Positions 14,595 through 44,934 of a stretch of DNA of 64,000 nt are shown here, in pieces; the stretch's first letter is position 1, and the number at the start of each line of letters is the position of its first letter. The DNA is from Effrenium voratum. Taxonomy: Eukaryota; Sar; Dinophyceae; Suessiales; Symbiodiniaceae. The stretch is from contig CAUJNA010001005.1 in the NCBI GenBank assembly GCA_963377175.1, positions 1 through 64,000 of the forward strand, in the 5' to 3' direction. A program made the position numbers and the translations under genes. Below the pieces are notes generated by a model that saw only the letters and a program-made list of their open reading frames with translations, made no database searches and was not told the origin of the DNA.

Positions 14595-14700
14595 AACCAA
14601 CCAACCAACCAACCAGCCAAACAACCAACCCCGACCAACCCAGCAACCAACCAACTAGCGAACCAGCCAACCACCAGGCCAGTCGAACAACCGGCCAAGA
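14595..14700. repeat. (AACC)n-type simple repeat
   Basis: AACCAACCAACC units with variants. Confidence 0.85.
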
Positions 14701-14747
14701 GCAAACTGCCCAGCACCCAAAGAAGACATAGCTACTCTGTCACACAA

Positions 14748-15033
14748 ACATATGTGTATGTACGTATGTATGTATGTATGTACGTATGTACGTATGTACG
14801 TATGTACGTATGTACGTATGTACGTATGTACGTATGTACGTATGTACGTATGTACGTATGAACGTATGTACGTATGTACGTTTGTACATTTGTACGTATG
14901 TACGTATGTACGTATGTGCGTATGTACGTATGTACGTATGTATGTGCGTATGTATGTATGTATGTACGTACGTACGTACGTATGTATATGTATATGTATA
15001 TGTATATGCTTATGTATATGTATATGTATATGT
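14748..15033. repeat. (TACGTATG)n/(TATG)n microsatellite, left half
   Basis: 8-bp TACGTATG units decaying to TATATG next to the 5' LTR. The same repeat type resumes directly after the 3' LTR, so the retrotransposon appears to have inserted into an existing microsatellite. Confidence 0.9.
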
Positions 15034-15126
15034 TGCAGATCTTGGCATTCTCATGCATGATTTTGTCATTGCAGCCATAGGCATTAGGCTTTGGTAAGTG
15101 AGCTATTTTTGCTTGAGGTTGCATGA

Positions 15127-15157
15127 GTGGACATGTCTTGCAAGTTGACATGTCCAC
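15127..15157. promoter_or_regulatory. Perfect 11-bp inverted repeat in the 5' LTR
   Basis: GTGGACATGTC, a 9-base loop, then GACATGTCCAC. The copy in the 3' LTR (29754-29784) keeps both arms and differs only in the loop. It could be an RNA hairpin or a protein site; its role is not known. Confidence 0.75.
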
Positions 15158-15176
15158 CTTGAGGGAGTTGGAGTGG

Positions 15177-15196
15177 CGTGCCTATTTTGGCTCAAG
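15177..15196 (+). promoter_or_regulatory. Spliced-leader-like sequence in the 5' LTR
   Basis: CGTGCCTATTTTGGCTCAAG matches the 3' 20 bases of the dinoflagellate spliced leader (known form ending CGTAGCCATTTTGGCTCAAG) apart from one missing A and one extra T. The last 13 bases are exact. This suggests that the RNA ancestor of the element was trans-spliced and then copied back, or that the LTR uses an SL-like acceptor. Confidence 0.65.
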
Positions 15197-15414
15197 CCAC
15201 ATGCGCACGGTGAATGAGTGCGCTGCCTGTGAAAACGAGCCGCTTCGCGGGTGTGCCAGAGAGTCGGGACACGGGTGAGACGTGGATTCTGGGTTAGTCC
15301 TTGGTTAGGATTAACGCCTCTCACAGTTGGGGGCTGTTCTGGGAAATACTGAACTCCCTGACCCTTGTAAGCACACCGCGGTAAAAGGCTTGTGTGGGCA
15401 GCCTCTACTGAAGG

Positions 15415-16353
15415 ATGAGCCAGGAAGTTTCAGGCGAAGAACTTGGTGTCGCTCTCCTTGACTGCATCAGAGATGGAAGGGTACCAAGGCCTGAGGAAAT
15501 GAGCTTCCCGGCTTGGCAGCGCTGGAGGAAGCGTGAAGGTCGTCGACCGACCCGCCGGCAGGATGGCCGCGGAATGTCTACGGTCGAAGAAGTAGCTCTT
15601 TGGAGAGCCGTGACGGCGGAGCTATATGGGGAAGACCGAATTGAGGACCTTGAAGAAGAAGAAGAACAAGATGAAGAAGAAGAGCCGGAAGCCAGACCAA
15701 GGCTGAGGCCGATCCCAGCTCTTATGGGGCCAGCAGAGCCTGACGTTGGGACTCGGCCGTCGCCGCGACCAGTGGGGTTTGCGGGCGAGGCCCCGGGTGA
15801 GCAAGCCCGGCCGGCTATCAGAGATGAAGGTGGAAGAGGGGAGGAGAAGGGCAGAGCTAGCCCGGCTCCCTCTTCGGGATACACCGGTGTCTCCATGTCG
15901 GAGATGCAAAGGAAGCTGTTCGCACTTCATGATCCGAGGTATGAGAGCCTCGCGGCCTATCGGGCGCGGGCCGAACGGATCTCCCATGCGTTAGAAGTGC
16001 TGGGACAAGAAGTGGGACCGGCTGACCTGCGGTCAGTCATCATGAAGGCAGAGTTGATACAAGAAGGATACGAAGCTCTGGGTGACTTTGACCCTAGGAC
16101 CATGGTTGGTCACTTGAGGGAACAGTTCATCATGCTGGCCAACGATGACACGAAGGAGCCAGAAGAGAAAGGACTCACGACGGTCGCGATCGCGGAGTTG
16201 ATCCAGGACTTGGGAGGCCGAGTGAGTACGGCTCCTGACAAAGTGTTCTCTACTCCATCCGACGAGCTCCATGATGACCGGAATAGAGGTTCGAAGCGGA
16301 GCCGTGAACCCACCGATGGAGACGAAGGCGTTGTAGCGAGCTGGAGTCCCTGA
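15415..16353 (+). CDS. Gag N-terminal region
   Basis: 312-codon frame starting at an ATG 90 bp after the 5' LTR (MSQEVSGEELGVALLDCIRD). It has an acidic Glu/Asp run at about residues 79-93, a Pro/Arg-rich linker, and helical charged segments toward the C-terminus. There is no named domain. It ends at a stop inside the run that continues in the -1 frame (ELESLKKDKDKD...), so the natural Gag probably spans both frames. No clear slippery heptamer was seen, so an indel is as likely as programmed frameshifting. The position after the LTR and the capsid-like continuation support the Gag assignment. Confidence 0.7.
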   Translation: MSQEVSGEELGVALLDCIRDGRVPRPEEMSFPAWQRWRKREGRRPTRRQDGRGMSTVEEVALWRAVTAELYGEDRIEDLEEEEEQDEEEEPEARPRLRPIPALMGPAEPDVGTRPSPRPVGFAGEAPGEQARPAIRDEGGRGEEKGRASPAPSSGYTGVSMSEMQRKLFALHDPRYESLAAYRARAERISHALEVLGQEVGPADLRSVIMKAELIQEGYEALGDFDPRTMVGHLREQFIMLANDDTKEPEEKGLTTVAIAELIQDLGGRVSTAPDKVFSTPSDELHDDRNRGSKRSREPTDGDEGVVASWSP

Positions 16354-16442
16354 AGAAGGACAAGGACAAGGACAGGGCGGCCTCAGAGGCGTCCTCTCCT
16401 GAGAAAGAGCTCGCGAACGCGCTGGAGCATCAAACAGCGGCC

Positions 16443-19250
16443 TTGATGAAGGCGGTGGAGGGCCGTAATCAATCGCAAGTTACGTCGGTAAAAACAGACT
16501 TGCAATGGCCCACGCTTGGGGACGAAAGGAGCGACTCTAAGGACGTGTCCGAGTTCTACGACCATTTCGAGGACAACTGTGGTCTCGCGAACTCCTGCAA
16601 GGGCATGAACTATCGGGAGATGCCGCTTGCGCTGAGATCTCGGTGCAGGGGGTCCCGCCTCAAGACGTTCACGAACCTCTATAAGTCGGCCTACCGAGCC
16701 GGCGAGATAGAGAAGGACCCGGAAAAAGTGTACAAGCGGATCAAGGCGAAGCATCTCATGTTCTCGGAGAGCCCGGAGGAAAGGGAGATACGAGTTGACG
16801 CAGAGCACGTAGCTTTGGCGAAAGGGAAGATGACAGGGCACCAGTTCGAACCGCTTTTTGAGGCGAGCGTCACGGAGCTGGAGACAGTTGGCCTGGGTAA
16901 GAGTAAGAGGGAGCTGTACCTGTCGTATCTTCGCAAGATGCCTGCGCACCTGCAGAAAGAGATCCGGAGTGACAAGAGGTTGTGGGCTGGTGAGACCCAG
17001 CTGAGAGGACCTCAGACATGGGAGGAGGCTCATCGAGTGGTTCTGGAGGTCGAGCAGCGAGAAGCCACTCATCGGGCGACTGCGAATGCTGTCTACTCCA
17101 CGGAGACGGAGAGGCAACAGCAACCTCCGAAGAAGGAGCCAAAGAAACCGAAGGAGCCAAAGGCGCCGAAGCAGCAGGTTTTGGCGGCCACAGAAGGCAC
17201 GAACGGCAAGAAGCTGTGTTTCCACTACAGGGATCATGGAACCTGTCCGTGGGGAGACAAGTGCCACTACTCCCACGACAAGGAGCTTCGGAAAAAGGCG
17301 CTGGCGGAGAAGAAGCAGCACGCGGAGAGCGGATCAGTTCTCGCGGTTAAGGGCGAAGGAAAGGGCAAGGGGGACCAGAAAGGGAAAGGTAAGGGAACCG
17401 GAAAAGGAAAAGGAGATTCTAAAGGGAAGAGCGGTTCCAAGGGCAAGTATGATGGAAAGAGTAAGAAGGAAGTCCTCTGCCCTTTCTTCCGGAAGAACGG
17501 CGCCTGCAAGAAGGGGTCCGGGTGCGATATGCTGCACGCGCTCGTGATCGGCGAAGAGACCGGAAGGACGCAAGGAGTCGCGACTCAGCAGTCTTTGGCA
17601 ATGGGGCCGAAGCCGGATGCGAGCTCCCTGATCAACCCGTTCGCTGCACTTAGCGTGACGATCGGAGAGTACAGTAACTCAGAAGTGATCTCTGGCGGAG
17701 TGTTGAAGACGTCGCCGAGCAACGGTGGCGGAGGTCCAGGGATCGCGGAGCTTGACGATCTGCCGAAGGATTGGTGGGAGGTCGTCCAGAACGAGTCCGG
17801 AGGGTACCAGTACCGGACCGTGGTGAAGATCCTGGGGAAGCAGGTGGAATGTATGTTGGATGGAGGTGCCGGTGCCAATCACATCACGGAGGAGCTGGTG
17901 GTCAGCATGGTTGAGCACGCGAGGAAGAAAGGAGTCCAGCCCGACAGCAAGGACTACCCGATCCTCAGGTTCGAGAAGTGGGTCTTCCCTGAGTTTGTGC
18001 ATGGCATTGCATCGGGCAAGCCAGTGCCTTTGAAGGGGAGCGTGGTCCTCCGAGCTAGGCTGCAGGAAGGACCGACACCGGAGGCGTCGAAGGACGGACC
18101 AGAGCTGTTCATCCGGTGTAAAATCGCAGCGAAAGGCTGCTCAGATTGGCACGGAATCATACTCGGAGGCCGAGCCCTCGATTGCGAAGCGAGAGGCGGC
18201 TTGGGCTTCAGGCCGGGACCGGGGTTTCACTTCCTTGATACCGTGGGAGTGAAGATGCCTCGCTGCGAAGATCACAGCAAGGGGAGGCACGACAGAGCTT
18301 ACCCGTTCTCGGTGGCCTCTTCCCTTGATGATCATTCGGCTCTTCCGAGGGATGGTGCGCCAAGGGACCTCTTGGTCGCGGCCTGCGGTGAGCCAGTTGA
18401 GCTCTTCCCTGGTGATGGAGTGCTCATCCCGGTCGATCGGGTCCGAGAAGGGCTCGATGTGGATGACCAGGGAAGATCATGCGAGGCGATCTTGCCCATT
18501 GGTGACTCGGTCGAAGCAGTGCCAGGCATTTGGCCTACCGGAAGCCAAGAAGGTATGGTCTTGATAGCCGCGAAGTATGAACCGGTCGTGATTGAGGCCG
18601 GTGAGACGGTTGCGGAAGTGCGCAGAGGGCGCATCGCGGCCAGTGAGTGCACGCGCTGCCACATGTGGGATTCGAAGTTTCAGGACAGCTGCCACTTTGA
18701 AGATGACAGCTGCAGTTCCTGTGGGACCGGCATTTTGCGGCCGGACTCGTGCAGTCAATGCGGAAGTGAAGAAGTCCGACAAGTGCGTTTGCAGGGATGC
18801 GAAGAGTGCATCGCGACGGACTTGAATAAGGAAGGAGCGGCTCGGGAGGATGAGGAAGTACTCCCGGAGCGCGCGTCCGGTATCGGCGCTGCGAGGATTT
18901 CGCGGGGAAACGGCCGACCGAGAAGGTGGGGGCTTGGAGCCTTTGCCGCGATGATCTTCTCTGTGGCTTCGTTGATTGGAGTCAACCAGACAATGTCTCG
19001 GACGAAAGGGAACCGGGATTTCTGGGAGTACGATGCTACCGAGAGGAGAGGACGTGGGCTAGGAAGCACCTGGTCCCGAGACGGGCTTTGTACTCGCCGA
19101 TTGGTGCGTTCAATTGCCCCTTTAACATTGGAGAAGCCCGAGGTAAGCGGATTACCCGGTTTGAGTGCGAGGGCAGCCCTGAGGGAGTCCTGGAGGATGA
19201 CTGGAGGACTGTCGAAGATCCGCACAGAGACTTGGGGAAGCCTTGGGTAG
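16443..19250 (+). CDS. Gag capsid-like, two CCCH zinc fingers and retropepsin-like protease
   Basis: The frame is open from about 16320, upstream of the listed start. Residues about 35-220 form a capsid-like helical region (ELYLSYLRKMPAHLQKEI). Two CX8CX5CX3H fingers follow, at about residues 259-279 and 346-366, separated by a Lys/Gly-rich linker (GKGKGDQKGKGKG). They stand where CCHC knuckles would normally bind the genomic RNA. At residues 472-477 LDGGAGANHI resembles an aspartic protease active site, with DGGA in place of the usual D-S/T-G-A. A Cys-rich zinc-ribbon-like block follows at about residues 736-795 (CTRCHMW, CSSCGTG, CSQCG, CEEC). The frame then diverges from coding and the downstream Pol continues in the -1 phase from about 18950. 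Confidence 0.8.
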   Translation: MMKAVEGRNQSQVTSVKTDLQWPTLGDERSDSKDVSEFYDHFEDNCGLANSCKGMNYREMPLALRSRCRGSRLKTFTNLYKSAYRAGEIEKDPEKVYKRIKAKHLMFSESPEEREIRVDAEHVALAKGKMTGHQFEPLFEASVTELETVGLGKSKRELYLSYLRKMPAHLQKEIRSDKRLWAGETQLRGPQTWEEAHRVVLEVEQREATHRATANAVYSTETERQQQPPKKEPKKPKEPKAPKQQVLAATEGTNGKKLCFHYRDHGTCPWGDKCHYSHDKELRKKALAEKKQHAESGSVLAVKGEGKGKGDQKGKGKGTGKGKGDSKGKSGSKGKYDGKSKKEVLCPFFRKNGACKKGSGCDMLHALVIGEETGRTQGVATQQSLAMGPKPDASSLINPFAALSVTIGEYSNSEVISGGVLKTSPSNGGGGPGIAELDDLPKDWWEVVQNESGGYQYRTVVKILGKQVECMLDGGAGANHITEELVVSMVEHARKKGVQPDSKDYPILRFEKWVFPEFVHGIASGKPVPLKGSVVLRARLQEGPTPEASKDGPELFIRCKIAAKGCSDWHGIILGGRALDCEARGGLGFRPGPGFHFLDTVGVKMPRCEDHSKGRHDRAYPFSVASSLDDHSALPRDGAPRDLLVAACGEPVELFPGDGVLIPVDRVREGLDVDDQGRSCEAILPIGDSVEAVPGIWPTGSQEGMVLIAAKYEPVVIEAGETVAEVRRGRIAASECTRCHMWDSKFQDSCHFEDDSCSSCGTGILRPDSCSQCGSEEVRQVRLQGCEECIATDLNKEGAAREDEEVLPERASGIGAARISRGNGRPRRWGLGAFAAMIFSVASLIGVNQTMSRTKGNRDFWEYDATERRGRGLGSTWSRDGLCTRRLVRSIAPLTLEKPEVSGLPGLSARAALRESWRMTGGLSKIRTETWGSLG

Positions 19251-21898
19251 GCACGACGTACTTCTTCATGAACAGAGGAGAAGCGGAAGGAAGTGGCGCG
19301 ATTGACACGCGAAGGACTCCAGTCTACCACATCGTCGAAGTGCCAGGAGAAATCGAGAGAATGGGGGAGATGACCCCTACGGACTCCTACTATGAGCAGT
19401 TGCATGGGCATTTGAGGAAGAAATATCCGAAGGCCGACCCTCATTTGCTTGACCACTTGATTGCTCTAGAGGCGTTCTTGGACAAGTCGATCGTCTTTGG
19501 CTTCAGCTATGGTCTCTCAAAGGCTGAAATTGCGGTCATGCAAGGAAAGCTTTTGGGACATCACCTCTCCCGTGGCGGTGTCAAGGCCGATCCGGAGAGG
19601 AGCCAGGCGGTGAGGGATTTCCCGCCTTTACGTGAAAAACTGCACATTCAACAGTTTCTGGGATGCGGAAATTGGTTGAGAGCGTATTTGCCCGTGGAGT
19701 ACGGTCATGCTGCGAAGATCCTGAATGCCTATCAGAAGCCGGGTGCAATCTTTCCGGAAGGCGGCTTGGGATCAGCGAATACGGATGGGTGCAAGGCTGT
19801 GAAGGCCATCAAGCGGATGATGACGGAGCAGATTGAGCTCTCGATCTTTGATGAGGCGACCGCCATAACCGGTGAATGTCCGTTGGAACAGATCGCCGAC
19901 GCGTCTGGGATCGCGGTCGGAGGTACAGTACTCCAGATGAGTAGGGATCGGACTAAGATGAAGGTCCTCCTCACTCACAGTAAGAGCCTAACACCTCCTC
20001 AACAGGCGTGGCCTCCTCTCATCCAAGAAGCGTTTGCGCAGCTTGAAGTGAAGCGTGCTTCGAGGAAAGTCCTAGGGACGATCCGGGCCATCTGTTGGAC
20101 GGACCATGCGAATCTGACCAGAGCTCAAGGGTCGGACATCGGAGGAGATGTGAAACTTCTCAGATGGGTGGCCGAGATCATAGCGGATGGTTCGGAGATT
20201 CGGTCGCTAGCAGGCCGTACAGCCAAGTTGGGCGATGGATTCAGCAGGAATCCGAAAGGACGTGATGAGCTCCTGGAACAGAGGACGCTGGACGTGCGCG
20301 GGCTCTCCGGGCAGCTTAGAGGATTCGATCTGGATGCCTATCCGGATGAGATGCCGGAGGGACCAGTGCCTTGGGCGGTGGGCGACCACGCCCTCCCAGG
20401 TGGGCATGAAGACGTTGCGTACGTCGGTAGCCTTCATGGGCTTGTCGCTGCGAAGCTGAAGATCCTGGTCGCAGTGGACTATGAGAATGACGCTGAGAAA
20501 GCGCTTCAACGCGTTTGTGAAGAGTTTAAGATGCCTGAGTGGACGGTGACTGTTCACCCATGCTATGGAGCCTTCGAGGATGACGACGGAGTTTGGGCGC
20601 AGTTTGACGGGGCCACCGGTAGGTTGCAAGGAGACCGGAAGGTCAAGAGGGCTAGAGTCGACTTGTTGACTTCTGCCGCCAAGCTGGCCCGGGCCATTGC
20701 GGATTATGGGCCGGACTTCGTTGTTGGTTTCGGGCAAGGAGGAATCGTCGCAGGGATTCTGCGGTGGCCTCTGGTTTTGGAAGTGGTTCTGCAGGCTAGG
20801 AATCTGCAGAGAAAGGAAGCGCAGGAGATTTGCTTGGCGTGGGCTCGAGTGAAAGCCATTTGGGCAGTAGCCCCGCGGTGGTGGAGAACTAAACCTGAAG
20901 CCGGCCTCTTGAAAGCGGCCTGCCCGGAGTTGGCTCTGGAGTTTCCAGTGGAGCCGATCAAGGGCTATGCTTCGGTGCCAAAGGGCACCGTGAAGGACCA
21001 GGAAGTGAAACAGGTCGTGGAGGTGCTGAGAGTGCCGGAGATTGGGCGGATCAATAGTCAGAATTTGGCTGGTCTGGCCAGGGAGAAGGATAGAGAGATG
21101 TGGGAGCACGACGGGCTCTGTGCCTGCGGAAAGCGTACCTACGTTTTCAGCCGGTGCCCGACGTGCATCCGACGAGAGGCGCAAGATGCTGTAGTCGAAG
21201 CGCAGGAAAGGAAAGAACGCGAAGAACGAGGAGATCTTGAGGAACTGGACGGAGCTGCGCTGATAGAAGAAGTCGGAGCGGCATCCAATATGTGCGAACC
21301 GGACGGGACTACCGAGGTCGTCGGGATTAAGACAATCCACTCTTGGGGAGGCGGCAGCCTGCCGAAATCTGGATCTGGGGGCGCCAAGTGGACCGTCAAG
21401 ATGCCAGGCAAGGGCGGAATTCTGATGAAAGGACGCTGGGACAAGGGGCATTCGCCCGAAATCCCTCAGCTGTCCGGTGACCAGGTCGAAAAGTATCCGT
21501 ACCGGACTGTCTGGGCCGTTGAGCCGGACGGGACTGTATTGACGGTGCAAAACTGTTGCAAGGTCGGTTCTCTGGAGAGCTCTGAACCTGAATGGGCCCT
21601 CCAGGGGCTGAATTGGCACTGTCACAGGAGCGTGGTGAACGCTCAGTGCGATTCGGTATGGAAAACCGGAAGCAAGGAGATGAGTGCCAGATTCAACTGC
21701 CTGATCGGACTGATCGGAGTTCCCGTAGAGGTCGTGGCATGGAACGACGGCGACGGGCAAACGTCGGTCGGACACAGGCGGGATTTGGTTAGCAAAGGAC
21801 GCGGCAATGTCCTAGTCGGGTTTCAGCTCAGAAGCCCCGGGAATCACTGGGATCCGTTTGAGCTGGGCAAGAAGATCCGAGTGGAAGAGCAGATGTAG
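18926..21898 (+). CDS. Pol fragment: RT thumb/connection and RNase H
   Basis: Residues about 180-280 match the end of a Ty3/gypsy RT (KLLGHHLSRGGVKADPER, then FLGCGNWLRAYLP). Residues about 318-440 match the RNase H (ADASGIAVGGTVLQ, LTHSKSLTPPQQ, CWTDHANLT). RNase H removes the RNA strand from the RNA-DNA hybrid. No fingers/palm and no YxDD motif are found upstream of the thumb in this frame or its neighbours; that part lies 5 kb downstream. After RNase H come about 500 residues without a recognised domain, including a Cys-containing segment (CACGKRTYVFSRCPTC). The frame ends where the integrase frame takes over at +1. Confidence 0.8.
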   Translation: MGAWSLCRDDLLCGFVDWSQPDNVSDEREPGFLGVRCYREERTWARKHLVPRRALYSPIGAFNCPFNIGEARGKRITRFECEGSPEGVLEDDWRTVEDPHRDLGKPWVGTTYFFMNRGEAEGSGAIDTRRTPVYHIVEVPGEIERMGEMTPTDSYYEQLHGHLRKKYPKADPHLLDHLIALEAFLDKSIVFGFSYGLSKAEIAVMQGKLLGHHLSRGGVKADPERSQAVRDFPPLREKLHIQQFLGCGNWLRAYLPVEYGHAAKILNAYQKPGAIFPEGGLGSANTDGCKAVKAIKRMMTEQIELSIFDEATAITGECPLEQIADASGIAVGGTVLQMSRDRTKMKVLLTHSKSLTPPQQAWPPLIQEAFAQLEVKRASRKVLGTIRAICWTDHANLTRAQGSDIGGDVKLLRWVAEIIADGSEIRSLAGRTAKLGDGFSRNPKGRDELLEQRTLDVRGLSGQLRGFDLDAYPDEMPEGPVPWAVGDHALPGGHEDVAYVGSLHGLVAAKLKILVAVDYENDAEKALQRVCEEFKMPEWTVTVHPCYGAFEDDDGVWAQFDGATGRLQGDRKVKRARVDLLTSAAKLARAIADYGPDFVVGFGQGGIVAGILRWPLVLEVVLQARNLQRKEAQEICLAWARVKAIWAVAPRWWRTKPEAGLLKAACPELALEFPVEPIKGYASVPKGTVKDQEVKQVVEVLRVPEIGRINSQNLAGLAREKDREMWEHDGLCACGKRTYVFSRCPTCIRREAQDAVVEAQERKEREERGDLEELDGAALIEEVGAASNMCEPDGTTEVVGIKTIHSWGGGSLPKSGSGGAKWTVKMPGKGGILMKGRWDKGHSPEIPQLSGDQVEKYPYRTVWAVEPDGTVLTVQNCCKVGSLESSEPEWALQGLNWHCHRSVVNAQCDSVWKTGSKEMSARFNCLIGLIGVPVEVVAWNDGDGQTSVGHRRDLVSKGRGNVLVGFQLRSPGNHWDPFELGKKIRVEEQM

Positions 21899-22930
21899 GC
21901 CGACGATGGTCTTCGTCGTGAAGCCGAGCGAAGGCCCGCGGGGCGTGCTTGCCTACTTCTCCAAAAGGTGGGTGGTGGTTGATTACGCACACCCTGTCGG
22001 GCATATCTACAGCTTTGAAGATAGGAGTCGCCTTGCTGAAGAAGCAAAGGCCGCGGCGGGGATGTCGAACTTTGAAGTGACAGGCTGCCTGCGAGCGTCT
22101 TGGGTTGAGGCTCAATCCAAGGACCCCTCACTCGCGGAGTCACTCCGGAAGACTCCGGAAGGATACAAGAGGGCTGCAGACGGGATGCTTGAGAAGGAAG
22201 TCAGTCTGCCAGGCGGTGCAATGTCCACGGTGCCAATAGTGCCGAATGGAGTCGCTGCTAGCTCTGGAGTTACTTGGCGGAAGACGTGCTACCTCCAGTT
22301 CCATTGTGGAGTGTTCGGCGCGCATCGGTCGGCTGAGAAGACATATGCTCTCATGAAACGTGTGGTCTGGTGGGCCACGATGAAAGAAGATATCAACTCC
22401 TAGGTAAGAAAGTGCCTGACGTGCTTTAAGGCGAGGTCGAGGGCGATTAAAATCACCACGAAGCCGATGAAACCGGCGGCTGACTATTGCTGGCAAGAGG
22501 TGTCTGTCGATTGCGAGGGTCCCAACAAAGAGGATTACGCAGGGAATCGGTATTCCTTGACGTACATGGATTGTCTCTCGCACGCGGTTTACTTGGAGCC
22601 ACTCCGTGCCCTCAACCACGCTGAAGTTAGGCGCGCCTTCGCCAGGTGTGTCTTGCGTAGCAGGACGCTACCGACCTTGGTAGGTCCGCGATGTTCGCTG
22701 AATATTGCGCCCTCATCGGTGCGAGCGTTGTCAAAGATGTGGCGAGGGGGCACACCGACCATTGGGGCGACCTTCTCGTAGTTGTGGAGTACTGCATCGA
22801 CACGACCCCGGGTCCTCATGGCTATATGCCCAGAGACCTGGACAGAGCGTGGTCCCTGGGTGTGCCTCTGGAAAAGGACCTACTCAAGAGCACTTTAGAA
22901 TTTGAGCCGGAAGATTTTTGGCCAATATAA
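21858..22930 (+). pseudogene. Integrase, zinc-binding and catalytic core, disrupted
   Basis: The HHCC zinc-binding part (HCGVFGAHRSAEKTYALMKR...KCLTCFK) is interrupted by an in-frame TAG at 22401-22403, just before the Cys pair. The catalytic core begins with VDCEGPNKEDYAGNRYSLTY, giving the first Asp. At about 22680 the phase changes and the segment that should hold the second Asp is missing. The region that normally carries the catalytic Glu is also absent, and the frame resumes at DHWGDLLVVVEYCIDTTPG. As read, this integrase cannot have a complete D,D-E triad. Confidence 0.8.
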
Positions 22931-24686
22931 GGCTGTGAGCAAGGTCGTGAAAGACCATCTCACGAGCGCGAGCGAGGCCCGTGTAAGGCTCGCGAACCGA
23001 TACCGTCGCGAGGTGGACCTCAAAGTCGGGGATCGTGTGGTATGGCGTGCTCCGGGCCTGTCAGACCCGGGGGCGAAAGGGGGAGTGCCGTGGAAAAAGG
23101 GTCTAACCGGCCCTTGGGAAGTCATTTCGTGCAAAGGGAACAGATTACAGTTGGCCGGACCCGACGGCGCCCAACCTCTCGCAGCTCATGCCGAAGATTG
23201 CGTCTTGATCCCGGACGATGTGTGTGCCGACGCCAGAGATGAGATCCAATTTGATTACAGACTACAGTTGGCCGGACCCGACGGCGCCCAACCTCTCGCA
23301 GCTCATGCCGAAGATTGCGTCTTGATCCCGGACGATGTGTGTGCCGACGCCAGAGATGAGATCCAATTTGATTCGGATCCAGATGATTCGAGACCCAGCT
23401 TAGGTCAGATGATCAAAGGGGAAACTAAGCAGGTCGAGTTCACGATGAAAAGAAGAGGTAAGCAGTACGTCCTGAAGATTGGAGACATGATTGCGTTCAG
23501 AAAAGGATACGGTCCGAAGCTTTGCGCAATTGGACGGGTCACGTCAGTTGCGGTCTCGGAAGGAGTAGTGCACGTTCACAAGTATGCGCCGGAGATCGGC
23601 GGACTGCATGTGAAGTGGTGCCTTCTGTACTTGGACCAGCAAGGGCAAGAATCTCTGGCCCCGGAAGGAGGACGTCCTTGCGTAGAGGAAGTGAAGATGA
23701 GCTTGCTCATCACGAAGGTTGAGCTGAGCAGGGATGGAATCCTGCAAGCTTCATCTGCCAGGAAGCTTGACAAAGGAGGGTACCGCCTCGAAGAGCGGCC
23801 TCCGGCCCAGAGGGACCCGGAAAGGCGAGGGGAGCATGAGTACTCTGAGCCCCTGGACGACCTGGTCGGGATCCTCAAGGGCGGGAAAACAGAAAGTGGC
23901 GTGGGAGTGTTCGCCGCTGGGCCTTCGGATGGCTTCGCGAGAGAACAGAAAGCTGTCCTTGAATACCTTCGGAATGAAGGTGTGCCCCAGCACGGAGTTG
24001 ACTTCTTGGAGGTTTTCGCCGGACACGGTGGGCTCACTAAGGCCGCTAGGCGCCGTGGTCTGTTGGTTGGAGAACCCGTTGACCGGCTGTATAGAAGCTA
24101 CGGTCGGGATTGGGATCTGCGAAAGAACTCGGACCGGGCGCTCCTTGCTTGGTTGATCAGCAAGGTGATGAAACCGAAAGTCCTCCATGTGGGGGCGCCG
24201 TGTGAAAAGCTGAGCCGATTGGGCGAGCAGACCCCCTCGAGTGAGGATTTGGCTCTAGCAGAGTTTTCATGTGACCTGCTTAGCCACCAGGAGAAAGCGA
24301 ACGGCATCGGAACCCTTGAGAACCCTGTCGGGAGTTTGCTGTTTTCCCTTGAACTTTTCGTCAAGAGATTCGGGACCCTCGTTGAACCTAGGAGGCCTTG
24401 GGCCATGGTTCGGACCGACTCCTGTCAGTACAACATGACCTCGTTGGACGTGAGTGACGGATCGTTTGGAAACCCCGTTGAGAAAGGGCAGATATGGGTC
24501 AGCAACTCCGACCTGTCTGGGTTCTCTCTGAGGTGTAGGAAGCCGGACGCGCTTTTGAGGACTTTGCACCAACACCGGCAAATCCGAGGCTCGATGAAGA
24601 TAAGGGAAGACAATGAGCCCGGACTGGGGCCGAAGTGGGCAGGTGCAGGTAAGTTGAGTAGGGATCTACCCCGAAGAGTTGTGTGA
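22902..24686 (+). CDS. Integrase C-terminal GPF/Y-like module fused to C5-methyltransferase-like domain
   Basis: Residues about 40-75 resemble the integrase C-terminal module (GDRVVWR...GPWEVIS). A 117-bp tandem duplication then repeats 39 residues (about 82-160). From about residue 365 a cytosine-5 methyltransferase-like domain follows: motif I FLEVFAGHGGLTKAARRRG (SAM binding), a Pro-Cys motif VGAPCEKLSRLG (position of the catalytic Cys), and TLENPVGS (ENV-like motif VI). No clear target-recognition domain or motif X is visible, so the domain is compact and activity is unproven. Methyltransferase acquisition by retrotransposons has been reported in dinoflagellates. The next frame (RT) overlaps its end by 8 bases in the +1 phase. 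Confidence 0.75.
   Translation: MSRKIFGQYKAVSKVVKDHLTSASEARVRLANRYRREVDLKVGDRVVWRAPGLSDPGAKGGVPWKKGLTGPWEVISCKGNRLQLAGPDGAQPLAAHAEDCVLIPDDVCADARDEIQFDYRLQLAGPDGAQPLAAHAEDCVLIPDDVCADARDEIQFDSDPDDSRPSLGQMIKGETKQVEFTMKRRGKQYVLKIGDMIAFRKGYGPKLCAIGRVTSVAVSEGVVHVHKYAPEIGGLHVKWCLLYLDQQGQESLAPEGGRPCVEEVKMSLLITKVELSRDGILQASSARKLDKGGYRLEERPPAQRDPERRGEHEYSEPLDDLVGILKGGKTESGVGVFAAGPSDGFAREQKAVLEYLRNEGVPQHGVDFLEVFAGHGGLTKAARRRGLLVGEPVDRLYRSYGRDWDLRKNSDRALLAWLISKVMKPKVLHVGAPCEKLSRLGEQTPSSEDLALAEFSCDLLSHQEKANGIGTLENPVGSLLFSLELFVKRFGTLVEPRRPWAMVRTDSCQYNMTSLDVSDGSFGNPVEKGQIWVSNSDLSGFSLRCRKPDALLRTLHQHRQIRGSMKIREDNEPGLGPKWAGAGKLSRDLPRRVV
23146..23379 (+). repeat. 117-bp in-frame tandem duplication
   Basis: Bases from 23146 recur at 23263 with at least 109 of 111 positions identical. 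The frame is kept (39 codons). GATTACAG stands at both the start of copy 1 and the junction, consistent with slippage between short direct repeats. Confidence 0.95.
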
Positions 24687-26337
24687 ATCCTACTGGGTGT
24701 CCCTTGGTCCCACTTCCAAACAACTTGAAGTCAAGAAGTGTCACGGGGATGGACCCCTTTCGGAGTGGCTGAAGGAGCCACAGCAATTCGGTTGTTCTAT
24801 GCCTGTCGGATCGTCCGTCTTCGCCGTCCATCCTAGGAGTGCCGGCTCGGAAGAGGGCGCGGAGCCGCGGTTGCATGCCAACGCGGCCGCTGCCTCTCCC
24901 GAGGCCGATGTTCTTACCGGAGGGGAGTGGGAATCGGTTACGGCTGCGGAAAGGGAACGACTCGAGGCTGAACTTTTGAAGTTCTCCGAGGAAATGAGGA
25001 TCCATTGGGACGGTCTTGCTAAGAAAGGGGAATGGGATTCCGTGAAGTCCGACCTTTCTGTGTACCGACTCAGTGGTTCAAAGGTGACTGAGGACCCCAG
25101 GAGGACCCCTGAATACAGGGAACAGGTAGTAGAAGGGCTTCACTTCGGCAAGACTGCTGAAGCTAAGAGACCCTACTTGTCAAGTAAGGACGTAGTCAGT
25201 AGGAAAGCTGCTGCCTTCTGGGTAGAAGGGACCCCGCGAACGACCATCCGGGGAGTTTCGCACGATTGCATCCCTACTGGAGCTCCGGTCTCTAGTCAAC
25301 CTCACGCGTTGAGGGGTGAAGCCGCTGCTTGGGTTGATGAACAGCTCGAGAGTGAAGTTGCTAGAGGGCAGTTGGTTCGAGGCTCATCCCCTTGGGGCTC
25401 CGCGCCATTTCCGACCAAAGAGGCCCCTGAGCACAAGAAACAGCGGAAAAGGAGACTGGTTGTTGACTACCGTAGGGTAAATGCCCGTGTGAAGAGGTCA
25501 ACCTACTATTGCAGGCAAGCAAGTGACGTGTTGGCTTGCGCTGCTGGTTCGGCTTGGTTTTCCTTCGTTGATGCGGTGACAGGGTTCAACCAAGTTGCGA
25601 ACACTAGGAGAGCCATGGAAGTGCTCGCCATAGTATCCAGAAGCGGGAAGTTCCTGCCTTTGTGTTTGACCTTTGGACCCACCAATGGACCCGATGACTT
25701 CTGCTACACAGTAGATCGGGCGTTTGCCCCTGGAAGGAACCGGACCCTGAGGTATGGCAAACAGTGGTTGGCCTACGTGGATGACCTTACGGTTCGTACC
25801 GGGAAATGCCTTGATCAAAGGATTCTCACTGATGTTGAGTATGATGAGGAGATCCGTGCAGCTGCAAAGAAAGCAGGGGTTCAGGTAGCCCAGAAACCCG
25901 GGGAAGCTTTGGAGGCTTTGGGTTTCTCGAAAAGAGGTCTTGGGGACGAACTCCAGTCCAAACCAGAGACTGGGGAGAAAGGCAAGCATGATCCAGTGGT
26001 TTCAGATCACAATCATCCTACCCGGATGAGCTTGGTCCCATGGATTCATGCCGCTTATGCACTCCATATGGCTCGAATCAACCTGCTTGCACATGATAGG
26101 AGTTGCATTAGTTGGAGCATGCAATTTAGGCCATTCGGGCTTTGGAGGCAGTGCTTTTGTCGAGTGCAGCATTTGTGTGACTGTGTCAGCTATGGTGGAT
26201 GTCCGGGCTTTGTCCCGGCGCATGGTCAAAGCCCTGCGGCACGCGCCAGTGGGCGAAGGAGGCTGGCTCCCGGTGTCGTGGCTCGCGACCACGTACGGGT
26301 GCTCAGAAGCCGAAATTTTGGCTGCTGCTGGCCCTGA
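24679..26337 (+). CDS. Reverse transcriptase fingers/palm (YVDD), displaced
   Basis: Residues about 200-430 form a gypsy-like RT core: AWVDEQLESEVARGQLVRGS, the RRLVVDYRRVN box, FSFVDAVTGFNQV (first catalytic Asp), LTFGPTNGPDDFCYTVDRAF, and LAYVDDLTV at residues 364-372 (catalytic YVDD), then EALEALGF. It copies element RNA into DNA. The thumb and RNase H are not downstream; they are encoded 5 kb upstream, before integrase. The frame loses RT similarity at about 25990 and the last 110 codons overlap the following Tpt1-like frame. It is either a permuted Pol or part of a second element nested inside the first. Confidence 0.88.
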   Translation: MCESYWVSLGPTSKQLEVKKCHGDGPLSEWLKEPQQFGCSMPVGSSVFAVHPRSAGSEEGAEPRLHANAAAASPEADVLTGGEWESVTAAERERLEAELLKFSEEMRIHWDGLAKKGEWDSVKSDLSVYRLSGSKVTEDPRRTPEYREQVVEGLHFGKTAEAKRPYLSSKDVVSRKAAAFWVEGTPRTTIRGVSHDCIPTGAPVSSQPHALRGEAAAWVDEQLESEVARGQLVRGSSPWGSAPFPTKEAPEHKKQRKRRLVVDYRRVNARVKRSTYYCRQASDVLACAAGSAWFSFVDAVTGFNQVANTRRAMEVLAIVSRSGKFLPLCLTFGPTNGPDDFCYTVDRAFAPGRNRTLRYGKQWLAYVDDLTVRTGKCLDQRILTDVEYDEEIRAAAKKAGVQVAQKPGEALEALGFSKRGLGDELQSKPETGEKGKHDPVVSDHNHPTRMSLVPWIHAAYALHMARINLLAHDRSCISWSMQFRPFGLWRQCFCRVQHLCDCVSYGGCPGFVPAHGQSPAARASGRRRLAPGVVARDHVRVLRSRNFGCCWP

Positions 26338-26763
26338 GGGGAGTCCGGCAAGACGAGGTTCGTAACCGCGGACCTCGGGGGGACCACCTGCGTCAAAGCG
26401 CTGCAGGGCCATAGCAGTGCCACCGGAGTTTCAGTTCAGGAACTATATCCTCGAGCAGATCACGAGCATTTCACTGAAACGTACGGGCCCAACAACGTGC
26501 CGGACTTGATGCTCGCGCACGGGACTTTCGGGCGACACGTTGAGAGTATCCGGAGCGGTGGTTTGTTGCCTGGTGGAGGCACTACGGATCGTCAGACGAC
26601 GCATTTTGCCCTGACCACGCGAGGCGCTTTCTTGTACCCGTTGAATCTCATGCGGAGGAGTGCGGACGTTGTGCTGGTTGCATCTTTGGAAGCGATCCTT
26701 CACTTTGCACTGCGGAGCAGAAGGAGTTTACCTTACAGATCAAGCAGTGGATCCTGGCCAGCT
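26150..26763 (+). pseudogene. Tpt1/KptA-like RNA 2'-phosphotransferase domain
   Basis: Family proteins remove the 2'-phosphate left at RNA ligation junctions using NAD+, through an ADP-ribosylated intermediate. The N-lobe signature is ALSRRMVKALRHAP...EGGWLPVSWL (phase 2, about 26190-26290). After a phase change near 26345 come VKALQGHS, LMLAHGTFGRHVESIRSGGL and DRQTTHFALT (phase 1). After another change near 26700 comes AEGVYLTDQAV. The LRH pair, QGHS, HGT and Arg are present, but the Arg that usually precedes xxQGHS is Lys. Two frame changes make this copy non-functional as read. The order and spacing of motifs match the whole family fold, which makes chance unlikely. Confidence 0.7.
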
Positions 26764-29515
26764 TAGTGCGTGGAGCGTACTTACGGGAGGGCGCCAAGGA
26801 GATCTTCTTTTTGGGAGTGCCGATCGCGGCCTGATTGTGCGGCCGGATAGGCAGGAAACCATCCAGAGGTTAGGGCCTCTGAACCGTAGCTTCTCGCAAA
26901 GCAGCCAGGGTGGGTTGACGGGGCCTGGAGTTAAGCAGTACCTCAGTGCGCTTGCTGCTTACTCTGCCCGGTATCAGGGGAAGGCTCCGGCGGCTAGCAC
27001 AGCTAGCTCAAAGGGGACTGCTGCTGGAGCAGTCTATGATGTGCCTGCCATTTCCCCGACCGTGGCTGAGTTCCGGACGGAACAAGTCCGTGAGCGGGCG
27101 GGAGCCCCTAGAGCTCCGCCTGCGAGATCCGCGAAGGCGGGAGCATCAGAAGCTCCGCCCGCGAAGAAGGCGGGAGCAATTGAGGTGAGGCCAATTGCTC
27201 CGCCTGCCAGTACGGCCACGGCAACTGCCTCTGGTCGCGGGACAGATCCGCCCGCGGACTGGAAGGGGCTGATCGACAAGACGGCGCTTTTGGCTGCTGC
27301 CGTTGGTCCGGGGTTCGAAGAGCGAACTCTGAGAGAGCACGACCAGAACAAGTACAGATTCCTGTTGGCGGATCACCAATATCATCCTTATTATTTGGAG
27401 CAACGGGAACGTGCAGCTAAGGAACGCGCGGAGCGGGAATCATCCAGAGGCTCTGCCGCGGTTCCGGAAGAAGATGATGAAATTGCTCCGCCGCCGTTGC
27501 CGGCACCGGCGGAACCGCCGACCGGATATGTGTCTCTCGACGACGAGGAGTCCGTTGAGATCGAGGAGTCGGGAGAGGGGGAATCTGGAGGAGATGATGA
27601 CAGTTTTTATCCCGACGATCGAGGTGGTGGTGGCGGCCAGCCGTTGAGGCTGAAGAGCAGGAGCCGATCAAGGAGTCGGTCCGGGCCAGTGGAACCGGTG
27701 AGAGCTGTGGTGAAACCGAAGGCCACTCCGCCATGGAGGAGACCGGGAGGAGTTTTCGGTCCGGGAGAGTCCAGGCCGGCTCCAGTGCCGGGTCAATTTC
27801 CTTGGTCCCGCAATACGAAGAGAGTGAGTGTCATGCGGCGCTCCGATGAGGACGAAGATGATGACATTCGGCCACATCCTGAGTCGGCCGGCGCGAGCGG
27901 CCGAGGACCAGCAGGTGAACATGTTCGGAGCACCGAGAGGCGGCATCGAGAGTCCGCGCGGGCCGAAGCTTTGGAAGAGCTTGCTGCAGGCCGCGGTTGG
28001 GACTGCCGCCAATGTGGCGGAAGGAACGTCAAAGCACGGCTGACGTGCTATAAGTGCAGCCGTGCTCGAGAGGGCACATGCGAGCAGGACAGCTCGGATG
28101 ATGTCGTGACAGAGGATGAGGATGTATTTCGCCGGTTCAGTCGCAAGCCCAAAAAGAGGGGCGGGCGACGGCATCCTGGCAAAGGCGACCGCAAGAAGCG
28201 CAGCAGAAAGAAAGTGCGGAGGCCTGGTTTCTCGAGCCGGAAAGGCCGGAACAAGAAGGCCCATGCTGAGCATGGCAACCAATTGAACCTCGTTTATTGG
28301 GGAACCATGCTTGCCCTCATCCCTCTTGGTTACAAAGGTGTGGTCCAGATTGACAATGTTGTGGAAGATGTCATGGGGAGTGTTTCGGTCAACACGGTCC
28401 TCTTAGTCGACAAAATGGGTTCGCAGGGAGTTGCTCTTGTGGAGACTATGGGGCTGTTCCTGCGGGCTACCTTGATGAGCATGTTTGTTGTTTTCATGAC
28501 GTGGTGTGGTTGGACAGTATCCCGCAAGTGTAGGAACAAAGCCATGCACCGACTTCACGGCAATATGCTTGGGGAAGGCCAGAGGACCAAGAAATTCATG
28601 ACAAGGACGGGTCATGTCTTTGTGACAGAGGAGTTGGTCTTGGGACGGAATGTTATGAAGTGTACCTGCAAAGCGTTCATTGACCTGGGTACGGAATGCC
28701 AGCACATTATCGTGGCCAGGCAGCGATGGGCCGACCAGCCGCTGACCGGCGGTGTGGCGTCGACGATAGGCGAGGATCGGGCTGGGGGCGCCGGAGAAAC
28801 CCTCCAGGCGGTCCCCATTCTTGATGAAGTGACCAGTCCGGGATTTTCGCTAAGGTCGCGTTCGGCTCCATCTAGGAGTGAATATGTCGAAGTCGGTTGC
28901 CTTCAAGGCCTAGTGAGTAAGGCTAAGGAGCTGGGTACCGGGAGTAGGAATAAGCAACCGAGAGTGGCCAGTGCGGAGCGGGATGACGCTCGCGGGCAGA
29001 GTTCAGGTTTGGTCAGGGACGATTTCTCGAGTCCGTTGGCAACTTCGGAGGGAGCCGTGTTGTATTTGCAACAGGTGCTCAACGACATTCGTAAGGAATC
29101 GAAACCCCCGGGATCGTTGCGATCTGACCACCTTTCCAGGCTTAACGCGGCTGTGTTCAATCTTTCCGGGCGAGGCGCTGTGGATAGCGCTTTGGCGCTC
29201 AAGGTCTTCCAGACCGTGGATAAGATTCACACTGCATACAACGCGGAGAAGTATGACAACTCGGATTCTGCCTTCTTCAGTAACTATTTGGCCTTGCTGG
29301 GCACCATGCAGAATCAGGTCTTCTTCAGCCAGAAGCAGAATGAGAAGTTTGTGAGCTGGATTAAGCTAGCCGTCGATGGGAGCGGCAAGCTGGTTCACTT
29401 GCTAGACAAGGCGCTGGAGACTGAGAATGAGAAGCTGCGACTGCAACTTTCCAGGCTGGAAAGATCGGATGAGCCGAGCCGAAGCAGTACTGAGCCCAGG
29501 TCCAGGGCCGGATGA
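26660..29515 (+). CDS. Accessory ORF with RanBP2 and SWIM zinc fingers and hydrophobic segments
   Basis: A 951-codon frame whose first about 40 residues are the tail of the Tpt1-like domain. It then has an Ala/Pro-rich disordered region, an acidic Glu/Asp stretch, an Arg/Ser-rich tract (KSRSRSRSRSG), and a RanBP2-type finger at about residues 445-469 (WDCRQCGGRNVKARLTCYKC, fitting WXCX2CX3NX6CX2C). Next come a Lys/Arg-rich tract, two hydrophobic segments (about 543-562 and 598-618), and a SWIM finger CTCKAFIDLGTECQH at about 668-682. The C-terminus is helical and charged. The fingers suggest RNA or protein binding. No enzymatic domain was recognised. It ends 146 bp before the 3' LTR, where an envelope-like gene might sit, but no envelope features are claimed. 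Confidence 0.7.
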   Translation: MRTLCWLHLWKRSFTLHCGAEGVYLTDQAVDPGQLSAWSVLTGGRQGDLLFGSADRGLIVRPDRQETIQRLGPLNRSFSQSSQGGLTGPGVKQYLSALAAYSARYQGKAPAASTASSKGTAAGAVYDVPAISPTVAEFRTEQVRERAGAPRAPPARSAKAGASEAPPAKKAGAIEVRPIAPPASTATATASGRGTDPPADWKGLIDKTALLAAAVGPGFEERTLREHDQNKYRFLLADHQYHPYYLEQRERAAKERAERESSRGSAAVPEEDDEIAPPPLPAPAEPPTGYVSLDDEESVEIEESGEGESGGDDDSFYPDDRGGGGGQPLRLKSRSRSRSRSGPVEPVRAVVKPKATPPWRRPGGVFGPGESRPAPVPGQFPWSRNTKRVSVMRRSDEDEDDDIRPHPESAGASGRGPAGEHVRSTERRHRESARAEALEELAAGRGWDCRQCGGRNVKARLTCYKCSRAREGTCEQDSSDDVVTEDEDVFRRFSRKPKKRGGRRHPGKGDRKKRSRKKVRRPGFSSRKGRNKKAHAEHGNQLNLVYWGTMLALIPLGYKGVVQIDNVVEDVMGSVSVNTVLLVDKMGSQGVALVETMGLFLRATLMSMFVVFMTWCGWTVSRKCRNKAMHRLHGNMLGEGQRTKKFMTRTGHVFVTEELVLGRNVMKCTCKAFIDLGTECQHIIVARQRWADQPLTGGVASTIGEDRAGGAGETLQAVPILDEVTSPGFSLRSRSAPSRSEYVEVGCLQGLVSKAKELGTGSRNKQPRVASAERDDARGQSSGLVRDDFSSPLATSEGAVLYLQQVLNDIRKESKPPGSLRSDHLSRLNAAVFNLSGRGAVDSALALKVFQTVDKIHTAYNAEKYDNSDSAFFSNYLALLGTMQNQVFFSQKQNEKFVSWIKLAVDGSGKLVHLLDKALETENEKLRLQLSRLERSDEPSRSSTEPRSRAG

Positions 29516-29660
29516 AGGGTATAAGGAATTGGCCACTGCCCAGTGGAATAGGATAGGGAGCCCCCGCAATTTGAAGAATGGGGCTGTTCCCACAATTAAG
29601 GATGAGAATGCTCTGGAGTTGCATTCCCCGCCGCGGCTGGAGGCTGCAACTGGGGGCGAC

Positions 29661-29955
29661 TGCAGATCTTGGCATTCTCATGCATGATTTTGTCATTGCA
29701 GCCATAGGCATTAGGCTTTGGTAAGTGAGCTATTTTTGCTTGAGGTTGCATGAGTGGACATGTCTTGCGAGTTGACATGTCCACCTTGAGGAAGTTGGAG
29801 TGGCGTGCCTATTTTGGCTCAAGCCACATGCGCACGGTGAATGAGTGCGCTGCCTGTGAAAACAACGAGCCGCTTCGCGGGTGTGCCAGAGAGTCGGGAC
29901 ACGGGTGAGACGTGGATTCTGGGTTAGTCCTTGGTTAGGATTAACGCCTCTCACA
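29661..29955 (+). repeat. 3' long terminal repeat (295 bp)
   Basis: Same TGCAGATC...CTCTCACA boundaries as the 5' copy, with an extra AAC near 29861. The hairpin is at 29754-29784. It is followed directly by ATGTATATGTAC microsatellite. Confidence 0.95.
29804..29823 (+). promoter_or_regulatory. Spliced-leader-like sequence in the 3' LTR
   Basis: Identical to the copy in the 5' LTR. Its presence in both LTRs shows it is part of the replicating element. Confidence 0.65.
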
Positions 29956-30410
29956 ATGTATATGTACATGTATATGTACATGTATGTGTATATGTATATG
30001 CTTATGTATATGTATATGTACATGTATATGTAGATGTATATGTATATGTATGTACGTACGTATGTGTATGTGTATGTGTATGTGTATGTGCATGTGTATG
30101 TTTATGTGTATGTGTATGTGTATGTGTATGCGTATGTGTGTGTATACGTGTGTGTGCGTGGTGTATGTGTATGCGTTTGCGTATGTGTGTATGTATGTGT
30201 GTGTATGTATGTATGTATGTATGTATGTATGTATGTATGTATGTATGTATGTATGTATGTATGTATGTATGTATGTATGTATGTATGTGTGTGTATGTAT
30301 GTATGTATGTATGTATGTATGTATGTATGTATGTATGTATGTATGTATGTATGTATGTATGTATGTATGTATGTATGTATGTATGTATGTATGTATGGGT
30401 GTGTGTTTTG
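29956..30410. repeat. (TATG)n/(TGTA)n microsatellite, right half
   Basis: TATATGTACATG units, then TGTGTATG, then long (TATG)n. Continuation of the array to the left of the element. Confidence 0.95.
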
Positions 30411-36766: not shown

Positions 36767-37436
36767 AAATCAGGACAGAACCACCATGACCTAGGTTGCG
36801 TTAATAAGCAACATGACACTGTCTTGTTCAAGCCATGGTTCCATGCCCACAGTAGGCATGACAGTGAGGCTGCTCTGTTAGCCGTGGTGTCGACTGCGAG
36901 GCTTGATGCTGGTTCTCATACTAGGGATCCTTGTCGGCTGCCTGAAATCCATGAGTGTCCAGCCAGATTCGGTTAGACAAAAGGCCGAGGGATGGCAAAG
37001 GGTGCCCTTTGTCCACCACATGATCATGGTCTCAAGGGCAGCTATTGGCAAAGGGCCCCAAAGATTGTTGGTGTGGCATGGGGCGGTTTGTTCGTGAAAA
37101 CATCAAAAAGGCATTGTGATCAGCGAGTGGTATGGGCGGGCCTTGAGCGCCCGGCATTCAGCGCCAGCGGCGCTTCTCGCTTCACTCGGCGGCTCCGGCT
37201 GAGGCCGGTCTGGGCGGGCAGCACTTGCCACAAATTGGGACAAGATCCCCCGCGAAAGGTTCTTGTTTTGTTCAGGTCGATCCAACACATTGCGGTATGC
37301 GTGTTCATTGTTCCTCACCAAGATGCGATCAAGGCATATCGGGAGAAGAAAAAAAGCGCTCCAAGCAAAGCTCGAATCCGAGAGACCACCCTGCCTGCAT
37401 CAACACAGTGGCCTCATGCTGGTCAAAGCTCACCGC

Positions 37437-37499
37437 GGCCTTGGCAGGGCGGTGACTCGGTTTCCTCCCACCCCAAGGGACCAAGTTTCCAGCCTAGGT
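37437..37499 (-). CDS. Candidate short exon
   Basis: About 62 bases between an AACACCTAG acceptor and a GTGAGC donor on the minus strand. All frames are open, so the protein cannot be chosen. Confidence 0.25.
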
Positions 37500-44932: not shown

Positions 44933-44934
44933 TT

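Follow-up and report, generated by a model that had tools for sequence, protein, structure and literature searches.

A multicopy long terminal repeat retrotransposon of Effrenium voratum with a rearranged pol region, Tpt1 and SURP domains and a spliced-leader-like sequence in its repeats

The stretch analyzed here (the window; 64,000 nucleotides, positions 1 to 64,000 of the forward strand of contig CAUJNA010001005.1, assembly GCA_963377175.1) comes from Effrenium voratum, which is listed among the free-living Symbiodiniaceae and of which three strains have been sequenced (PMC11453091; citations here and below refer to excerpts of the papers named). At positions 15034 to 29955 it carries what is probably a multicopy E. 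voratum long terminal repeat (LTR) retrotransposon with a Ty3-like integrase and RNase H, a rearranged pol region, and a set of old, integral extra domains for which roles can be proposed. The element is bounded by paired LTRs, keeps one domain order across 11 copies and in two diverged relatives, is inserted in (ATGT)n microsatellite DNA, contains a spliced-leader-like sequence within its LTRs, and encodes Tpt1 and SURP domains recognized by Pfam.

The 5' LTR (15034..15325, plus strand, 292 bp, TG...CA) and the 3' LTR (29661..29955, plus strand, 295 bp), delimited by repeat comparison and LTR pairing, differ by two substitutions and one 3-base indel and enclose the entire domain set, in agreement with the single LTR unit proposed in the initial annotation of this DNA. 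The 5' LTR is followed by a presumed primer-binding stretch (15326..15350, plus strand) beginning with GTTGGGGGCTGTTCTGGG, a start that is identical in 10 of the 11 copies compared (C287 differs); a tRNA scan of the whole window found none. Profile and tblastn surveys covered a genome of 1,155,904,702 bases in 3699 contigs, in which the window copy is contig C1005. From an LTR search in which the best 40 of 67 candidates were scored, 11 LTR pairs were assembled, including that of the window, with copy sizes of 14.3-15 kb except for C3304 at 17 kb. The LTRs of each pair differ by 0-5 mismatches over 291-295 bases, indicating that the insertions are young. In tblastn comparisons of fetched pieces (1e-5), the thumb-RNase H region of the reverse transcriptase (RT), integrase, GPY/F, methyltransferase-like, SURP, finger, SWIM, and C-terminal parts were detected in 11 of 11 copies, and the RT palm and Tpt1 in 10 of 11, with some matches split over two or three frames or containing a stop. 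Domain order was identical across the copies; C3304 is without palm and Tpt1.

The recurrence of the same ordered domains across 11 copies and two diverged relatives shows that the extra domains are part of the element, as initially proposed, and a nested insertion or chimera as the origin of the set is excluded by the 11 copies. Neither of the two refuting observations named in the initial annotation was made: none of the 11 lacks the whole set, although one is without palm and Tpt1 and there are deletion derivatives, and a search for separate borders found no repeats flanking the extra domains. Protein clusters join neighboring parts of the element, with the integrase connected to the methyltransferase-like domain in P0009 (17 member sequences from other sources), the methyltransferase-like domain to the first part of the RT in P0011 (25 members), and Tpt1 to SURP in P0002 (2 members). 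Residues 2-820 of P0009 are free of stops at 11 genomic places, P0002 runs at 13 places without a stop from its first residue to residue 521 or 525, and the longest stop-free frame, at 5922 amino acids, contains matches of three queries and is long enough to span the element. The window copy itself is damaged by a stop and a deletion in the integrase core, two frame changes in Tpt1, and a frame change between the methyltransferase-like domain and the RT. Cluster P0001 (13 members) is a deletion derivative with the start of the first open reading frame (ORF1) and the 3' frame; it was rejected as a spliced product because its junctions near 15723/23066 and 23236/26747 are without GT-AG by eye, and a GCCAG match at the second junction suggests deletion by template jump.

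The pol region is rearranged, with the RT thumb and RNase H before the integrase and the RT fingers and palm after the methyltransferase-like domain. Pfam and structure-chain searches place the thumb/connection (from about 19490) and RNase H (19895-20176; RT_RNaseH, 9e-8) in the frame at 18926..21898 (plus strand), and the fingers-palm (about 25309-25940, with YVDD in 25765-25794) in the frame at 24679..26337 (plus strand), where RVT_1 scored 30.6 bits against a cut-off of 29.6 on an excised piece of the frame. There was no RVT match by Pfam upstream of RNase H in the frames scanned. The palm lies after the integrase in all 10 of the 11 copies possessing a palm, as well as in the relatives on contigs C500 and C2701. 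Ty3/gypsy elements have the order protease, RT, RNase H, integrase, with the integrase last; Ty1/copia elements have protease, integrase, RT, RNase H and an RT of the RVT_2 type. With RNase H before the integrase and the palm after it, neither order fits, and a Ty1/copia assignment is further contradicted by the RVT_1 rather than RVT_2 match. A single literature search for permuted or split RT in LTR elements listed a curation guide and no other paper.

An arrangement of this kind could also come from the fusion of two retroelements, one contributing RNase H and integrase and the other the palm, with no permutation of a single RT, and this is a real possibility even if not the favored one. It is consistent with an LG[HF].S..G motif read by eye in both RT pieces and with their different best solved matches, which are 8r0s ("Enzymatic polyprotein") and Ty3 for the palm, and 8wus and p80 RT/RNase H chains for the RNase H piece. 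However, the two pieces tile one chain, 8wus_E, with the palm frame covering 55-259 (E 0.71) and the RNase H frame covering 249-429 (E 0.0019), so that they meet at a single boundary with an overlap of 11 residues, and Pfam detected no second palm or second RNase H in the window frames. The separation of one RT into two pieces thus remains our preferred reading.

Both LTRs contain the spliced-leader-like sequence CTATTTTGGCTCAAG by sequence match (15182..15196 and 29809..29823, plus strand). The dinoflagellate spliced leader, DinoSL, reads DCCGTAGCCATTTTGGCTCAAG, and the relic form, DinoRL, reads CCATTTTGGCTCAAG (PMC12014239); the LTR sequence matches DinoRL at 14 of 15 positions, a value reached by 0 of 3000 LTR shuffles. 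With the full leader of 21 bases, the LTR agrees at 17 positions, a number also reached by 1 of 3000 shuffles. The exact sequence is present in 37 of 38 fetched LTRs, at one place. Weighing against a function is the observation that, in what was fetched of the relatives (LTRs not located), the closest leader-like sequence agreed at 12 of 15 positions, which does not exceed the best control. A relic of a retrogene, picked up by chance and without a role, which we consider somewhat unlikely, would be in keeping with the commonness of such relics in dinoflagellates (PMC12014239), with another exact relic in the window at 49215-49229, and with the mismatch to DinoRL and the 17 of 21 matches to the full leader; since the copies are young, the conservation of the sequence says little. 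The position held in 37 of 38 LTRs and the shuffling result nevertheless argue for more than chance, and the leader-like sequence may mark the start of the element RNA. A literature search on spliced leaders and LTR elements returned nothing on a leader inside an LTR in titles and abstract starts. Upstream of the leader-like sequence, the LTR has an inverted repeat, GTGGACATGT...ACATGTCCAC (15127-15157), and its first 163 bases fold at -60 kcal/mol (a value without shuffle control). The relic at 49215-49229 is part of a second retroelement-like gene (43082-49261, minus strand), where it is followed by a Gag-like frame; the frame at 43082-44932 of this gene has VDDF and RT/RNase H-like text by eye, and no direct repeats of at least 40 bases were found around it in 36000-56000.

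The Tpt1/KptA-like domain (26192..26763, plus strand; Pfam and cluster comparison) is interrupted by two frame changes in the window copy, and because of this its PTS_2-RNA match reaches only 19.7 bits, under the cut-off of 26. In P0002, the same profile scored 52.9 bits over positions 5-176 of 177, confirming the Tpt1-like domain that had been proposed from the window alone. CthTpt1 requires Arg18, His19, Arg68, and Arg121 (PMC6333775), and by alignment P0002 has the tetrad R-H-K-R, the first two residues lying in a weak 4.9-bit stretch. The third residue (Arg68 of CthTpt1) is Lys in P0002, P0004, P0006, and P0007, a point against a standard activity, as full removal of 2'-phosphates is thereby not a given; the C500 relative has Arg at this position (CVRALQGHS). 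Organisms that lack the fungal ligase are described as offering no evident reaction for Tpt1 (PMC6333775).

A whole-genome search with PF01885, in which the best 150 of 558 candidates were scored, placed 150 of 150 above the cut-off; as the element's own copies are not among these 150, the count is a lower bound. At least 30 of these places score 148-167 bits, and at least 43 share an open frame of exactly 1114 amino acids (manual count). One place of each kind was read. At C458:267000-279000 (L093, L098) is a long interspersed nuclear element (LINE) with Tpt1 in its first frame (159.8 bits), followed by Exo_endo_phos and RVT_1. At C813:283000-299500 (L092, L096, L097, L099) is a copia-like element with a CCCH-finger frame, an RVT_2 match of 20.8 bits (cut-off 31.6), and a separate 1114-amino-acid frame with Tpt1 (60.8 bits) ahead of the 3' repeat, the whole set lying within 146-base identical repeats; no integrase was matched in the three upstream frames scanned. 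Its Tpt1 is without the tetrad His as aligned and shares the Lys at the third position with the element studied here. The full tetrad is aligned in the LINE, in L095, which looks like the host's own Tpt1, and in L094 (C1241:46500-53500), a 1958-amino-acid frame with a helicase-like start (AAA_30, weak) joined to Tpt1. Pairwise identity among the five Tpt1 domains is 23-31%. A literature search on Tpt1 with transposons or dinoflagellates gave nothing in titles and abstract starts, and Tpt1 is not mentioned in the excerpt of a paper covering accessory domains (PMC6338049).

Downstream of Tpt1, the 3' frame (26660..29515, plus strand; Pfam, structure-chain search, and reading by eye for the RS and SWIM parts) contains the Tpt1 end, a SURP domain (27248-27409), an arginine/serine (RS) stretch, a RanBP2-type finger (27989-28075), a hydrophobic segment (28310-28573), a SWIM-like part (28661-28708), and a C-terminal part. 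The Surp profile matched the window frame at 5e-8 (33.2 bits; gathering score 21.1), and the domain matches chains 7vh9 and 2dt6. RanBP2 fingers follow the pattern W-x-C-x2-4-C-x3-N-x6-C-x2-C, and the element has exactly W-x-C-x2-C-x3-N-x6-C-x2-C by eye, with RBM10 (E 0.005), Nup153 (0.06), and RBM5 (0.14) as best solved relatives; it had no Pfam match. The proposed SWIM domain can be read by eye as CxC...CxH and had no profile match in Pfam. SURP frames at 43-50% identity also occur at places with SURP only, among them L074 (C1446:2261500-2266000), where none of the element's other domains was matched.

The C5-methyltransferase-like domain (23889..24626, plus strand; profile search) contains motifs at 24000-24059, 24180-24224, and 24303-24341 that were read directly as FAGHGG, PC, and ENP; C5 DNA methyltransferases are marked by motifs I, IV (PC), and VI (ENV). 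The best profile match was to phrog_363, "DNA methyltransferase" (0.00031), covering positions 51-138 of 327. DNA_methylase (PF00145) gave no match up to E 10, in a search whose filters remove most matches above about 0.1. The identity as a methyltransferase is weak, and the predicted structure (mean predicted local distance difference test score, pLDDT, 39) is too poor to use. The likeness noted initially is retained as a weak match, while the accompanying proposal of cytosine methylation of the element's own DNA is not supported in the form given, as there is no DNA_methylase match.

Constraint on the extra parts is visible over the long term and absent for the 3' frame over the short term. 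The relative on C500 (L090, L072) keeps the same order, with amino acid identities of 62-77% for thumb-RNase H, 70% for integrase, 56-71% for the methyltransferase-like domain, 66-71% for palm, 33-38% for Tpt1, and 62% for SURP, followed by finger and SWIM. The order is also kept in a second diverged relative on C2701 (L073, L091), and a deletion derivative lies on C54 (L075). In a search with the RT frame, the matches among 79 scored candidates were confined to this family, C500, C54, and C2701. With C100 as the reference copy, the proportion of nonsynonymous differences (pN) was below that of synonymous differences (pS) in seven of seven domains against C500 (methyltransferase-like 0.29/0.77, Tpt1 0.47/0.70, SURP 0.29/0.91; pS near saturation) and in six of six against C2701. 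Among nine or ten young copies, excluding C287, multi-change codons, and stops, the ratio of nonsynonymous to synonymous changes (N/S) was 0.43 of that under random placement for the pooled pol parts and 0.42 for the linker with the methyltransferase-like domain. Several results weigh against constraint on every part: the SURP core is unmatched in the C2701 relative, and in the young copies the methyltransferase-like domain alone is at 1.07 of random (N 7, S 2), the RT palm at 0.56 is not significant (177 of 1000 shuffles as low), Tpt1 at 0.53, based on ten changes, is not significant either (233 of 1000 shuffles as low), and the 3' frame, at 0.90 of random (N 29, S 15), gives no sign of purifying selection.

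The near-random ratio of the 3' frame, the existence of deletion derivatives (P0001, C3304 without palm and Tpt1, and the C54 fragment), and the broken Tpt1 of the window copy would be expected if the extra domains were passengers, that is, host coding sequence captured beside pol and carried without use. We regard this as unlikely, as diverged relatives preserve the same order of the module and show pN lower than pS, Tpt1 is present in other element families, and long stop-free frames run through the module.

The element is inserted in an ATGT-type microsatellite, identified by repeat analysis on its left (14699..15033) and right (29956..30400) sides without strand assignment. As ATGT stands at both ends within this repeat, a target-site duplication cannot be proved. 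An (ATGT)n 8-mer was found inside 30 bases of the outer LTR flank in 33 of 40 cases, the remaining 7 consisting of three (ATGTAT)n-like flanks, one GGGTATGGGT repeat, and three of degenerate or other sequence. The corresponding control counts were 7 of 1960 windows, taken from twenty stretches of 1 kb each that were placed at round positions, and 61 of 4808 in a second control from the window outside the element. Two points count against this comparison: the control stretches sit on contigs holding element copies, and the flank counts are not fully independent, since a 60-base 5' flank (14974-15033 in the window) is common to C1005 and C3179, whose 3' flanks differ, and C92 and C64 share flanks. 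The shared flanks show that some copies have been affected by recombination, duplication, or misassembly. In C1445 the flanks are on opposite strands, which suggests recombination or misassembly. That survival or assembly rather than targeting produced the (ATGT)n flanks, as C1005/C3179 and C1445 might suggest, is nevertheless improbable, because the copies with these flanks (33 of 40, against 7 of 1960 control windows) are nearly identical and young, so that selection has had little time to act.

The remaining coding parts are those of an LTR retrotransposon. ORF1 (15415..16353, plus strand; open reading frame list and cluster comparison) is an N-terminal Gag-like frame whose start is common to P0001. 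The following Gag frame (16443..19250, plus strand) has two CCCH zinc fingers by Pfam (zf-CCCH; 17205-17276 and 17475-17537) and a protease-like Asp-Gly-Gly-Ala motif by eye (17844-17885); the protease-like part initially suggested has this motif and gave no RVP match by Pfam on the window frames. The integrase (21858..23400, plus strand; Pfam and structure-chain search) has an H2C2 finger (22293-22394; Integrase_H2C2, 1.8e-7), a damaged core, and a GPY/F-like tail by eye (23097-23153). In P0009, H2C2 scored 44.2 bits, rve 29.0 bits (slightly below the cut-off of 32.6), and the match to the integrase of prototype foamy virus (PFV) was 4.3e-17, consistent with an integrase of retroviral type with H2C2 and DDE. 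The Gag (through its zf-CCCH stretches), RNase H, integrase, and RT parts of the initial annotation all have Pfam matches in the window's own frames. A 117-bp tandem duplication in the integrase tail (23140-23373) is not in P0009. Scans of viral_contigs gave nothing useful, a padloc scan found nothing, and a phage-tail-like contig (L001) was rejected because, judged by eye, it matched through one short word.

From these sequences a replication cycle can be proposed. Element transcripts would undergo trans-splicing at the leader-like LTR sequence or close to it, and the 5' end of the resulting RNA could then anneal to its counterpart in the 3' LTR during first strand transfer. Palm and thumb-RNase H, released from one large polyprotein, may assemble into a working RT. 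The integrase, sharing a frame with the methyltransferase-like domain, might be steered to (ATGT)n DNA, this domain perhaps being a DNA binder rather than a methylase. Tpt1 could remove or ADP-ribosylate 2'-phosphates on element RNA or the primer tRNA, and SURP, RS region, and finger may bind RNA or splicing factors, keeping or routing full-length RNA. In RslTpt1, an Ala mutant at the third tetrad position leaves step 1 almost intact and cripples step 2; both LTR types, the present one and the copia-like one, have Lys there, and they may therefore leave ADP-ribose on RNA. A wider proposal, tentative and doubtful as a whole, is that in a trans-splicing host at least three retrotransposon classes (permuted LTR, copia-like LTR, and LINE) recruited Tpt1, that both LTR types may leave ADP-ribose on RNA, and that the leader in the permuted type would serve first-strand transfer of trans-spliced RNA, in combination with a two-piece RT and (ATGT)n integration.

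The domain set initially described did not include SURP, the RS region, the split RT, the leader-like LTR sequence, the microsatellite insertion, or the other Tpt1 families; new here are the split RT, the (ATGT)n flanks, the leader-like LTR sequence, and Tpt1 in two further settings, the ORF1 of a LINE and a frame adjacent to a copia-like RT. Many retrogenes in dinoflagellate genomes bear spliced-leader relics, amounting to 22-25% of genes in Symbiodinium (PMC12014239), and the element that made them has been described as unknown (PMC6050394). A testable route to such retrogenes is offered by an LTR element whose LTR contains a leader-like sequence. Finding Tpt1 in several classes of retroelement suggests that RNA 2'-phosphates or RNA ends matter to reverse transcription. 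A pol in which the two RT halves lie apart would show how much cutting and rejoining an RT tolerates, and a single tetranucleotide repeat as insertion site would represent a sharp target preference.

Among known systems, the element resembles Ty3/gypsy (Metaviridae) in its TG...CA LTRs, RT_RNaseH, H2C2 integrase, and GPY/F-like tail, but differs in having the palm after the integrase, CCCH fingers in Gag, and Tpt1, SURP, and methyltransferase-like parts. Cytosine methyltransferases have been described in LINE and DIRS elements of Symbiodinium (de Mendoza 2018, PMC5890265); SymbioLINE-Dnmt and SymbioDIRS-Dnmt3 are likewise Symbiodiniaceae retroelements bearing a methyltransferase-related domain, in their case PF00145, whereas the present element is of the LTR class with an integrase, a remote Pfam-negative methyltransferase-like domain, and an RNA-enzyme domain in addition. 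Its P0002 proteins share with CthTpt1/KptA (PMC6333775) a nearly full PTS_2-RNA match, Arg-His, and the fourth Arg, and differ in the Lys at the third tetrad position and in the location of the domain inside a retroelement frame. The SURP domain, above its cut-off and matching 7vh9 and 2dt6, is like that of SF3A1/SWAP proteins, and the finger, similar to 2mxv, is like those of RBM5/RBM10, yet here one mobile frame joins them to Tpt1 and a SWIM-like part. Finally, the ta-TRIM elements of Echinococcus (PMC4558846) are also LTR elements that meet a trans-splicing system; there, the LTR transcript uses a host acceptor site, and a leader inside the LTR is not seen in the excerpt, whereas in E. voratum the leader-like sequence lies within the LTR itself.

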